In this document: positions 25,051 through 28,107 of the stretch, piece by piece | Layout: each line of letters starts with the position of its first letter | Position numbering within the stretch: position 1 is the first letter of the stretch | DNA from: Mycolicibacterium baixiangningiae | GTDB taxonomy: Bacteria > Actinomycetota > Actinomycetes > Mycobacteriales > Mycobacteriaceae | Assembly: GCF_016313185.1 (NCBI RefSeq) | Contig: NZ_CP066218.1 | Location: 2,418,001 to 2,482,000 of the forward strand | DNA length: 64,000 nt | Reading direction: 5' to 3' | Program-made: the position numbers and the translations under genes | Notes under the pieces: generated by a model | Told to the model about the DNA's origin: nothing | What the model saw: the letters and a program-made list of their open reading frames with translations, nothing else | Database searches by the model: none

Positions 25051-25530
25051 ATGGCCCGCGCGCTCGGGTCCTGGCTGTCCGGTCCGGAATCGAATCGCGG
25101 ACCCGGCGGCCCGGGCCAACCACCGAATGAATATCCGGGTCACCGGCTCGGTCTGCCCGAGAACGGCCCCGGCTCGATGGCGCGGTTCGGTCGCCGGGTG
25201 GCCGCCATGCTGGTCGACTGGTTCATCGCCTACGGTCTCGCCGCGCTCGCGATGACGGTCGGGCTGGTCTCGGCGGGCGCGATGTCGACGGCGATCCTCG
25301 TCATCTGGTTCGTCATCGGGGTGGTGTCGGTGCGGCTGTTCGGCTTCACCCCGGGACAGCTCGCCCTCGGGGTGATGGTGGTGTCGATGGACGACCGCGA
25401 GCAGGTCGGCGTCGGCCGCGCCGTGGCCCGTGGGCTGCTCATCGCGTTGGTGATCCCGGCGTTGTTCACCGATTCTGATCTGCGCGGCCTGCACGATCTG
25501 GCCACCAAGACGGCGGTGGTGAAGCGGTAG
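25051..25530 (+). CDS. RDD family membrane protein (Rv2219A-like)
   Basis: A 159-residue protein. A proline/glycine-rich N-terminal 40 residues precede the RDD domain, which has RFGRRVAAMLVDWFIAYG (the R...D pattern that names the family) and three predicted transmembrane helices. It ends DLRGLHDLATKTAVVKR, the family's conserved DLHDxxxxT(x)V tail. RDD proteins are poorly defined; some affect ion transport or osmotic stress. The same position beside glnA1 is held by Rv2219A in M. tuberculosis. The stop is 6 nt before the left hairpin element. Confidence 0.85.
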   Translation: MARALGSWLSGPESNRGPGGPGQPPNEYPGHRLGLPENGPGSMARFGRRVAAMLVDWFIAYGLAALAMTVGLVSAGAMSTAILVIWFVIGVVSVRLFGFTPGQLALGVMVVSMDDREQVGVGRAVARGLLIALVIPALFTDSDLRGLHDLATKTAVVKR

Positions 25531-25535
25531 CCGGT

Positions 25536-25596
25536 GCCGAACGTGAGCTCGTGTTCGACTTTCGGCCAGGAACTCGCGCACAAGTTCACGCTCGGC
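25536..25596. repeat. Hairpin repeat element A, left copy
   Basis: Arms at 25536-25553 and 25579-25596 are reverse complements at 15 of 18 positions, around a 25-nt centre. The right arm contains the TGA stop of the DUF559 gene. The element matches the copy at 26493-26549 in arm sequence, orientation and centre length. It may act as a bidirectional terminator for the RDD and DUF559 genes. Confidence 0.75.
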
Positions 25597-26449
25597 GAAG
25601 GTCAGCGCGGGCATCGGCCAGCGCGGCCTGCGTGCGACCGACGATGACCGCCGGCCGGTAGCGCAGCATCTCGGCGTTGACGTGGACGATGCGCCAGCCC
25701 AGTGCCGCCAGTCGGGCCCGCCGCTCGAGGTCGCGGTCACGGACGCGAGGGTCAGTCCAGTGTTGCGGCCCGTCGTATTCGACGCCGACCTGCCATCGGG
25801 GATAACCCATGTCGATGCGGGCCACGAAGTCGCCGTGGTCGTAGACCTCGATCTGCGTACGGGTCGGCCGCATCCCGGCGGCGGTGAGGACCAACCGCGT
25901 CCGGGTCTCCTGCGGCGACTCCGCTCCGGCATCCGATAGCACCAGGGCTTGGCGAAGCGCCACGATGCCGCGGGCACCTCGATGACGTTCGACGAGCGCC
26001 TGGACGTCGTCGACGCGCAGTCGAGTCGCCTGCCTGAGCGCATCAAGTCGCATCACTGCGGTCGTCATACCCTTGCGACGGCCCAGGTCGAACGCCGTCC
26101 GCGCAGGTGTCGTCGCGCAGATGCCCCGCACCAGGCAGATCTCGTCGTCGACCAGGGTGTCGCTGTGCAGCAGGATGTTCTCGGTCTTGTGCCGACTCGC
26201 CTGGTTGAGCTCGGCGGGCAGCGTCGCGTCGATCCACTTCGTCCCGTGCAGCGCCGCGGCCGACAGACCCGCGGCGGTGGCCCGCCTACCCGACCAGAGC
26301 CACGCGCCGACCGCCTTGTCGACCGGCGTCACCGCCTGCCCCTTCGGCACGTACACGTTGCGGAACAGCGCATCGTGGCGCGTCGCCAGCTGATACCGGT
26401 TGACGACTCCGGCCGTCAGGGCCTCGGTGCCGAGAAATGGCCACTGCAC
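25586..26449 (-). CDS. DUF559 (Vsr/PD-(D/E)XK-like) protein with AbiEi-like N-terminus
   Basis: A 287-residue protein. The C-terminal 110 residues match the DUF559 endonuclease-like fold: the strand RIDMGYPRWQVGVEYDGPQHW carries D and E-Y-D residues in a PD-(D/E)XK spacing, and RRARLAALGWRIVHVNAEML closes the domain. The N-terminal part (ALTAGVVNRYQLATRHDALFRNVYVP, then SAAALHG) resembles the winged-helix of AbiEi antitoxins. Family function is unknown; nuclease activity is an inference from the fold. The GTG at 26449 is the first sensible start. The gene is bracketed by two copies of one hairpin element, one overlapping its stop. Confidence 0.8.
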   Translation of the reverse strand: MQWPFLGTEALTAGVVNRYQLATRHDALFRNVYVPKGQAVTPVDKAVGAWLWSGRRATAAGLSAAALHGTKWIDATLPAELNQASRHKTENILLHSDTLVDDEICLVRGICATTPARTAFDLGRRKGMTTAVMRLDALRQATRLRVDDVQALVERHRGARGIVALRQALVLSDAGAESPQETRTRLVLTAAGMRPTRTQIEVYDHGDFVARIDMGYPRWQVGVEYDGPQHWTDPRVRDRDLERRARLAALGWRIVHVNAEMLRYRPAVIVGRTQAALADARADLRRA

Positions 26450-26492
26450 CCCGATAGGACGGCGTCACCGCCCGCGCCGGTTCCGCCCAGAT

Positions 26493-26549
26493 CGAACGTG
26501 AGGTTGTGCTCGACAATCCGCGCAAGACTCGCGCACAAGCTCACGTTCG
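26493..26549. repeat. Hairpin repeat element A, right copy
   Basis: Arms CGAACGTGAGGTTGTG (26493-26508) and CACAAGCTCACGTTCG (26534-26549) are complementary at 15 of 16 positions around a 25-nt centre. The centre shares TCGAC and ACTCGCG with the left copy. It begins 4 nt after the stop of the amidohydrolase remnant and lies 44 nt upstream of the DUF559 start. Confidence 0.75.
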
Positions 26550-26552
26550 GCG

Positions 26553-28107
26553 TCAGGCCTCGTGGCGGATCCGGCCGTTCATCATCGTCAGCACCACGTT
26601 CGCGCGGTGGATGTCTTGCGGGTCGATCTCGAAGATGTTCTGGTCGAGCACGATCAGGTCGGCGAACTTCCCGACCTCGACGGACCCTACCTTGTCGTCG
26701 AGCCGGATCTGGTAGGCGGAGCCGATCGTGTTGGCGTGCACCGCCTCTGCGACCGACAGCTTCTGATCCACCGGCTCCAGCACCGGCGCGTCGAGTTCGC
26801 CGACCAGCTGGCGCGTCACCCCGACCTGGATCGAGTCGAGCGGTTTGTACGTCGAGTAGTAGCCCGCCGCAGGCCAGTCCGTGCCAAGGGAGATGCGGCC
26901 GCCGGATCTCAGCACCGCCTGCGGCCGGTAGAGCAACTCCTTGCGCGGCGATCCGTATCGCGCGCCCATGTTCTCGATGGTGTCGGGATCCGCCGACATC
27001 CAGTTCGCCGAGAACTGTGCGGTGACGCCGAGTTCACCGAAGCGGGGGTTGTCGCTGTCCTCGACGAACACCAGGTGGGCGACGGCGTGGCGCCGGTCGC
27101 GGGGAGGATTCGCGGCGATCGCGCGTTCGACGGCGTCGAGTGCGACGCGCGCGGTGCGCTCCCCGCAGGCATGGACGTGCACGTCGTAACCGGCCGCGTC
27201 GACCGCCCCGATGAGTTGATGCCACTGCTCCTCGGTGAACGGAGACCCGCCGGTGGAGTCCGGTTTGTCGGCGTAGGGCTCGACGAGCCAGGCGGTGTAA
27301 CCGCCCTGGGTGCCGTCCCCCACGATCTTGACGACGTCCACCGACACCAGTTCCCCGGACACCTCACGGCGGATCGCGTTGAGCGCGTCGACCGCCCCCT
27401 CGACCGGAGCCGACCGGACCGAATACGACGCGACCACGCGGAACGGCAGCGCACCGCGTTGCTCGACGTCGGTGTACAGGCGCAGCAGCGCGGCCTGGTC
27501 GTCACCGATGGGCGGCACACCGGCGTCGAACACCGAGGTGATGCTGGCCGCGGAGGCCTTCGGTAGCCAGCCCTCCATCAGCGTGCCCATGGTGTCCGGC
27601 GAGATCGGCTCGACGGCGTCGACGAGGCCGAGTACCGCGTTGACCTCGAGGATGTAGCCGGTCGGGTCACCGTTCGCGTCGCGGGCGTAGTAGCTGAAAC
27701 CCGGTATCGGATCAGGGGTGTCGCGTGTGACCCCGGCGATCTCGAGTGCCGTGCTGTTCGCCCACAGGCTGTGCCCGTCGATGGCGAAGAAGAACGCGGG
27801 CCGGTCGGGGAGGATGCGGTCCAGGTCGGCCCGGGTGGGGCCGTCGGGCCCGAACATGTCCACCCGCCAACCGAATCCGCGGATCGCACCGGTGGGATTG
27901 TCTTTGGCGTAACGCTCGATCGCGCCCAGCGCATCGGCGAGTGTGGACACCTGCAGCGCCGCCCGGCGAGGTGCCCGGCGACGGGGCGGCGCAGGCGCTC
28001 GCCGCGGTCACCGCGGTCACCGTCGCGGCGGCCCGCAACATGGTACGTCGGGTGGCCCGGCCACCAAACGACGCGAAATGTGGCGCCCACTCACACGCTG
28101 TGCACAT
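26553..28107 (-). pseudogene. Exported YtcJ-like amidohydrolase, internal deletion and frameshift
   Basis: The 5' part from ATG 28107 reads a secretion signal with a possible twin arginine and a lipobox-like cysteine (ATRRTMLRAAATVTAVTAASAC). About 27955-27965 the frame changes, and from there to 26553 a 465-residue frame encodes the middle and C-terminal parts of a metal-dependent amidohydrolase. These include DVHVHACGERTAR, RRHAVAHLVFVED and SLGTDWPAAGYY. The expected N-terminal beta-sandwich and HxH metal-binding strand are absent, so a non-triplet deletion of perhaps 60-100 codons is likely. The remaining frame could still be translated from GTG 27950 but lacks two metal ligands. Confidence 0.7.

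Follow-up and report, generated by a model that had tools for sequence, protein, structure and literature searches.

The window analysed here, a 64,000-nt stretch of the Mycolicibacterium baixiangningiae genome, contains a nuclease-like gene that lies between an RDD-family gene and an amidohydrolase gene and is bracketed by two imperfect palindromes, H1 downstream and H2 upstream (Table 1). The stop codon of the RDD gene is followed after 5 nt by H1, one arm of which contains the TGA stop codon of the nuclease gene (25586-25588). On the other side, 43 nt separate the GTG start from the near edge of H2, and H2 directly abuts the stop codon of the amidohydrolase gene.

Table 1. Features of the hairpin-flanked nuclease locus, in coordinates of the window
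Feature	Position	Strand	Description
RDD-family gene	25051..25530	+	left anchor of the orthologous site
Downstream hairpin H1	25536..25597	.	same family as H2; nuclease stop codon inside
Nuclease gene	25586..26449	-	287 aa, GTG start at 26449
MTES_1575/Vsr-like nuclease domain	25640..25819	-	residues 211-270
AbiEi-like part	25994..26359	-	residues 31-152; PADLOC AbiEi models
Upstream hairpin H2	26493..26552	.	same family as H1
Amidohydrolase gene	26553..27950	-	right anchor of the orthologous site

According to the original prediction, made from the letters of the window, the gene is flanked by two same-direction copies of one hairpin element, one of them lying over the nuclease stop codon, and each of these points was borne out. 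With H2 as the query against the 6.18-Mb genome, H1 was recovered at 82% over 61 nt (E = 4.3e-9), and the pair has an alignment score of 30.5 in direct versus 17.0 in inverted orientation. As single-stranded DNA, H2 folds strongly (z of -5.3 and -4.1 for the two strands) and H1 more weakly (-1.3 and -2.6). H1 and H2 are real and above chance, and the phenomenon is general. No run of T was seen by eye beside either hairpin; a GTAG a few bases to the left of H1 is part of the RDD stop codon, and there is none beside H2. Inside the nuclease gene, Rfam returned a match to the ALIL pseudoknot (window 25927-26049, minus strand) that was sub-threshold and likely due to chance; there were no others.

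The gene had been described as encoding a DUF559-like endonuclease. A nuclease domain is indeed present, and PF18741 MTES_1575 fits it better (31.2 bits, below the Pfam cut-off of 38.2) than DUF559 does (17.4 bits, below the cut-off of 20.6). The MTES_1575-type profile was matched by 33 of 33 relatives (E up to 0.1), among which D213, D226 and H230 are invariant and E224 is nearly so; the acidic residues of this set would suit a Vsr-like active site. PMC3710099 introduced MTES_1575 as a new nuclease domain with a Vsr fold, occurring in giant proteins. The first half of the protein resembles AbiEi antitoxins, with PADLOC AbiEi models covering residues 32-152 and 31-147 (best E 2.4e-9) and PF09407 AbiEi_1 found in 19 of the 33 relatives scanned (E up to 0.1), a set outside which the window protein falls. 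Pfam scans of the window protein and the 33 relatives found no Y1_Tnp or other HUH transposase domain and returned no DDE family among the matches, and no solved structure was matched by sequence. Additionally, the nuclease domain weakly resembles parts of candidate anti-phage proteins (NCBIfam ProA, E 1.2e-4; PADLOC PDC-S37, E 2.9e-5).

The family occurs in all 60 of the 60 genus genomes with 2 to 16 matches each, and the relatives number 3480; where names are given, among the matches listed, they are mostly hypothetical protein, DUF559 or endonuclease-type. In five pairs aligned over about 280 codons dN/dS is 0.13-0.26, so that purifying selection acts on the nuclease where it is intact. Six pairs with shorter alignments gave 0.14-0.43, and their shortness suggests broken copies of the nuclease. 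Carriage as phage or plasmid cargo was considered and rejected: at the limits used, a search of 72,556 plasmid records gave 3 matches, one being to a record of 11.9 Mb, and a search of 50,697 phage records gave none.

A lineage-specific repeat brackets the nuclease gene at most of the loci tested, and in the usual case it is an imperfect palindrome about 50-65 bp long. The loci came from the 60 genus genomes and from named genomes, and form a non-random sample that favours the nearest relatives and is nearly all mycobacterial, with one locus from Antrihabitans. Matching repeats on both sides (score of at least 17) were found in 144 of 177 related loci, or 134 of 167 after removal of loci identical over 300 nt, compared with 2 of 299 control segments located 2 to 2.6 kb from the named loci; a matching pair was absent at this threshold in 33 of the 177. 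The first locus set was drawn from about 493 matches and comprised 89 loci from other genomes near the top of the list plus 14 from the own genome, with L070 and L170 left out for their short flanks and L041 and L042 for the lack of a tblastn match in that pipeline, the latter two being read by eye instead (L043 is the second piece of L038). Here, 75 of 99 loci matched at a threshold of 17.006 and 77 of 99 at 17, and 4.2% of mismatched pairs reached the threshold. In the second set, chosen by similarity and consisting of 80 of 97 confirmed named loci with L280 and L323 left out for short flanks, 67 of 78 matched, and mismatched pairs reached the threshold at 18% because close relatives share hairpins.

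Among 179 loci, a hairpin scoring at least 12 was present in the upstream flank of 91 and in the downstream flank of 80, versus 1/179 in shuffled sequence, 6/179 inside the gene and 6/175 beyond. The end of the upstream hairpin lies a median of 43 nt before the estimated start. Both flanks are palindromic in 72 of the 144 matching loci, the downstream repeat runs over the stop codon of the nuclease in 83, and 20 have inverted repeats without a hairpin on either side. When the 14 loci of the own genome, including that of the window, were read by eye, 11 had matching repeats on both sides, with a repeat sequence varying from locus to locus; L041 has hairpins on both sides that are common only at the outer end, and L036 and L037 have a hairpin upstream only. 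Of these loci, 12 could be scored automatically, and 9 of them passed. Further, a class-level search found relatives in 40 of 60 genomes, and with slightly wider flanks, 21 of 25 usable loci outside the genus had matching flanks versus 17 of 702 mismatched pairs (23 of 27 loci passed when L251 and L258, which have truncated contigs and artefact scores, were counted). Two loci show arrangements of their own: in L034, single arms in inverted orientation, resembling terminal inverted repeats, flank the nuclease gene instead of full hairpins, and in the downstream flank of L032 the tail of the nuclease gene and the hairpin appear duplicated in tandem.

The sequence of the hairpin follows that of the protein. 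Among pairs of loci at different chromosomal sites, from which syntenic pairs had been removed by tblastx, hairpins were shared in none of 2145 pairs below 50% protein identity (0/431 and 0/1714), in 10 of 1859 at 50-55%, 18 of 693 at 55-60%, 36 of 228 at 60-65%, 48 of 83 at 65-70%, and 43 of 45 at 70% or above. In a Mantel test on a blastn-filtered set of 9136 pairs, the observed value was reached in 0 of 500 permutations. Sharing was best predicted by residues 1-50 (AUC 0.79) and 51-100 (0.75), followed by 201-245 (0.73), in 972 pairs of the blastn-filtered set at 57-72% identity; these pairs are non-independent, and the ranking is therefore a lead to the reading domain rather than proof. 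Judged by these sequence comparisons, each nuclease lineage has its own hairpin.

A search for the window hairpin across the 60 genus genomes, with an E limit of 0.001, found it in 11, namely in 8 of 17 with a nuclease at least 60% identical to that of the window versus 3 of 43 others (Fisher p = 9e-4; 7 of 16 and p = 0.0024 without the own genome), the 60% line having been drawn post hoc, after the Mantel analysis. The remaining 9 of the 17 genomes with such a nuclease gave no hit to the hairpin at this limit. One of the three other hairpin-bearing genomes, G042, has an internally deleted nuclease gene, and in G052 (87% complete) and G014 the best nuclease match is 51% identical. It had been asked whether copies cluster around nuclease genes, and they are strongly enriched at these genes and matched to them in sequence. 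The pattern named beforehand as favouring a terminator or generic repeat, with copies at gene ends, no enrichment near DUF559 genes and presence in genomes lacking them, is therefore found only in part: copies do lie at gene ends and G052 and G014 do carry the hairpin with only a 51% identical nuclease, but the lack of enrichment is contradicted.

Counting the copies of the element, as had been proposed, showed it to be dispersed, and the same holds for the other two families searched in the own genome. The window family occupies 7 places (2 bracketing and 5 solo; weakest E = 0.027), and the L030 family 9 nearly full-length places (2 bracketing; weakest E = 0.002 and 0.016) along with two shorter matches. 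For the L042 family 27 places were listed, 25 of them aligned over 53 nt (2 bracketing and 23 solo), and its copies have sharp ends and unrelated flanks. The window and L042 families together have 28 solo copies for which position was assessed; 27 of these fall between genes, and 25 are at most 15 nt from a predicted gene end, versus 8.4% of the intergenic points in the window (binomial 3e-24); gene ends were predicted with a purpose-made codon-usage gene finder, which was checked only by its recovery of six training genes in the window. In the L042 family, read by eye, the hairpin edge often completes or contains the TAG or TGA at the end of the neighbouring gene. Across copies L360-L387 of the own genome, edges reading GTGA, or a G beside TA, form TGA or TAG, sometimes on both sides. 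No conserved bases such as a GTAG or CGTC tag were seen by eye beside 33 listed stretches of this family, a list in which one place recurs and a few rows are spurious. By eye there is hardly any variation in the outer stem, and covariation therefore says little.

The simpler view, that the hairpins are terminators at gene ends, retains its force for the position of the solo copies. Plain terminators are rejected as the whole account, because the repeats on the two sides of the gene agree in sequence with one another and also follow the lineage of the protein.

Comparison of orthologous loci had been suggested as a way to detect gain and loss, and it revealed sites that are empty, hold one hairpin, hold the whole unit, or hold the hairpin of another family. 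At the RDD-amidohydrolase site, where the junction was read in 12 other genus genomes, five (G014, G019, G034, G035 and G039) lack a hairpin, a 9-nt gap in G044 resembles a hairpin end, G052 has an intact and G002 a decayed solo hairpin, and G056 has 175 nt of other sequence. The full hairpin-gene-hairpin unit is present in G040, in G042 with an internal deletion in the nuclease gene, and in G028 next to another gene on the right, read by eye as the end of a DUF4191 gene. By eye, the unit also lies between the RDD and amidohydrolase genes in the named loci L268 and L269, and adjoins the amidohydrolase gene in L286. About 1.3 kb of extra sequence at this site in L090, L091 and L100 contained no nuclease in the stretch examined. 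To the right of the unit, L085 and L270 read as the end of a DUF4191 gene, so that the presence of the amidohydrolase gene, which intervenes in the window, also varies.

The same comparison was made at two solo sites, with the hairpins in the gaps judged by eye. At the first, 23 of 29 loci were resolved (the 6 with one anchor only were left out), and these have the same hairpin in 1, a different hairpin in 2 and none seen by eye in 20. At the second, 16 of 29 were resolved (13 with one anchor only were left out), with a decayed hairpin of the same family in 1, different hairpins in 5, a hairpin split by an IS30 insert in 1, no hairpin seen by eye in 7 and other inserts without a nuclease in 2. 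The gaps of these two sites in L175, L201 and L211 hold a hairpin of another family, of the type GCGAGCAGACGC...GCGTCTGCTCGC. The split hairpin (L214:209-1500, genome G054), also a solo copy of another family, was considered as a nuclease element inside hairpin arms and rejected, as no nuclease was found in it and it holds an IS30-family transposase gene (217 bits); it recalls the insertion sequences that reportedly target REP palindromes. In L089, an element located elsewhere, the similarity to the window spans the unit from the outer end of one hairpin to that of the other and stops there. The junctions read showed no regular target-site duplication; in L084 (G042) an 11-nt direct repeat, GCGGCGCTAGA, lies on both sides of the unit and is a possible target-site duplication. 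The empty, solo, full-unit and other-family states at orthologous sites together imply that hairpins of several families come and go at the same gaps.

Based on these observations, we consider it fairly probable that the window contains one member of a class of small chromosomal hairpin-nuclease-hairpin (H-nuc-H) elements, working in the manner of REPIN/RAYT systems with a non-homologous enzyme. In such an element, the AbiEi-like first half would read the cognate hairpin sequence, either as a duplex palindrome or as an extruded hairpin, and the Vsr-like domain would nick or cut at or beside it. Repair or strand transfer would then copy the hairpin, and occasionally the whole unit, into a new intergenic gap, with new copies mostly at gene ends, where harm is small, and a solo hairpin would result where the gene is lost from between its repeats. 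From the sequence comparisons we infer that the nuclease itself may move the hairpin. As described in PMC7319586, antitoxins of the AbiEi family bind to inverted repeats within the promoters of their own genes; this lends plausibility to hairpin reading and equally feeds the view of the upstream hairpin as an operator. The earlier suggestion of a RAYT/REP-like unit thus holds for the architecture, with cognate bracketing and dispersed hairpins of the same family, and extends to the gene family; the identity with RAYTs does not hold, as neither a HUH domain nor a conserved GTAG tag was found.

The likeliest of the alternatives, in itself an unlikely one, is a homing-type element, the nuclease of which would cut solo hairpins or hairpin-bearing gaps so that the gene is copied in by break repair, with the hairpins spreading otherwise. 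A hairpin on each side of the gene would provide ideal arms of homology, one orthologous site is known in hairpin-free, solo-hairpin and full-unit states, and the Vsr-like fold is common to the EDxHD homing enzymes. However, the gene usually lies between two hairpins and does not split one, save for arm-only cases such as L034, and solo hairpins occur at sites where relatives have none visible by eye, so that the hairpins move too.

It is distinctly unlikely that the hairpins are instead immobile regulatory sites, with the upstream copy serving the AbiEi-like part as its operator, the downstream copy working as a terminator, and the nuclease acting elsewhere, for instance on foreign DNA. The promoter binding by AbiEi-family antitoxins noted above (PMC7319586, in excerpt), the steady position of the upstream hairpin at a median of 43 nt before the estimated start, the location of the solo copies at gene ends and the similarity of the nuclease domain to parts of candidate anti-phage proteins would all fit such a role. 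A terminator, however, need not match the operator in sequence or co-diversify with the protein, and hairpins of the same family are dispersed away from nuclease genes and present or absent in relatives. That another, unrecognised enzyme spreads the hairpins, with the nuclease as a passenger or a housekeeper trimming extruded hairpins, is very improbable: two genomes (G052 and G014) do have the hairpin without a close nuclease and hairpins of the GCGAGCAGACGC type are present at the compared gaps, but the tight match between hairpin family and nuclease lineage and the bracketing are unexpected for a passenger.

Returning to the H-nuc-H element as the preferred reading, the unit has the look of a very small selfish DNA of an undescribed type, which may spread together with the nuclease it encodes. 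Among the matches listed, titles and abstract openings in the open-access literature tied no DUF559 or MTES_1575 genes to flanking palindromes, and earlier work may exist; in the same literature, again among the matches listed, we found no description of a DUF559 system of this kind, in agreement with the initial statement that none was known in mycobacteria. A broader proposal, which we regard as evenly poised, is that hairpin-specific nucleases of this type occur throughout much of the class Actinomycetia. Each AbiEi-Vsr protein would recognise and propagate its own palindrome at gene ends, even at stop codons, in a REPtron-like selfish partnership, and because the relatives number 3480 the set of mutually orthogonal protein-hairpin pairs would be very large. 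If hairpins are driven by nucleases in this way, the system would account for species differences in sequence at gene ends, would represent a second, independent origin of REP-like elements, and would provide a large natural set of matched hairpin-nuclease pairs from which a recognition code could be read.

Four known kinds of system invite comparison. Like the AbiE type IV toxin-antitoxin, the protein has an AbiEi-like first half, the antitoxin being a binder of inverted repeats, but in place of an AbiEii (DUF1814) toxin gene its neighbours in the window are the RDD and amidohydrolase genes, and its second half consists of a nuclease domain. MITEs and insertion sequences with terminal inverted repeats similarly combine small non-autonomous copies with a gene-bearing copy that has the same ends; in contrast to these, the H-nuc-H element has no DDE transposase and no regular target duplication was seen at it, and each of its ends is usually itself a palindrome. 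The Vsr-fold EDxHD homing endonucleases and the DUF559/MTES_1575 nucleases have in common with the element a related nuclease domain and a possible route of spread by break and repair. The EDxHD enzymes are known from introns, inteins or split genes, whereas the gene described here is intergenic and has palindromes on both sides. For the fourth kind, REPIN/RAYT, excerpts of two sources state that RAYTs are HUH enzymes and that E. coli-type REPs carry a GTAG tag (PMC8266576, PMC3116915). The H-nuc-H element differs in having an AbiEi-like plus Vsr/MTES_1575 protein, in which no HUH domain was found, in the absence of a conserved GTAG tag, and in its several paralogous pairs per genome with a lower copy number (7-25 places in three families). 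It resembles REPIN/RAYT in its short, imperfect, extragenic and dispersed palindromes of the same family as those flanking the gene of a DNA-cutting enzyme, and in that each enzyme has palindromes of its own.
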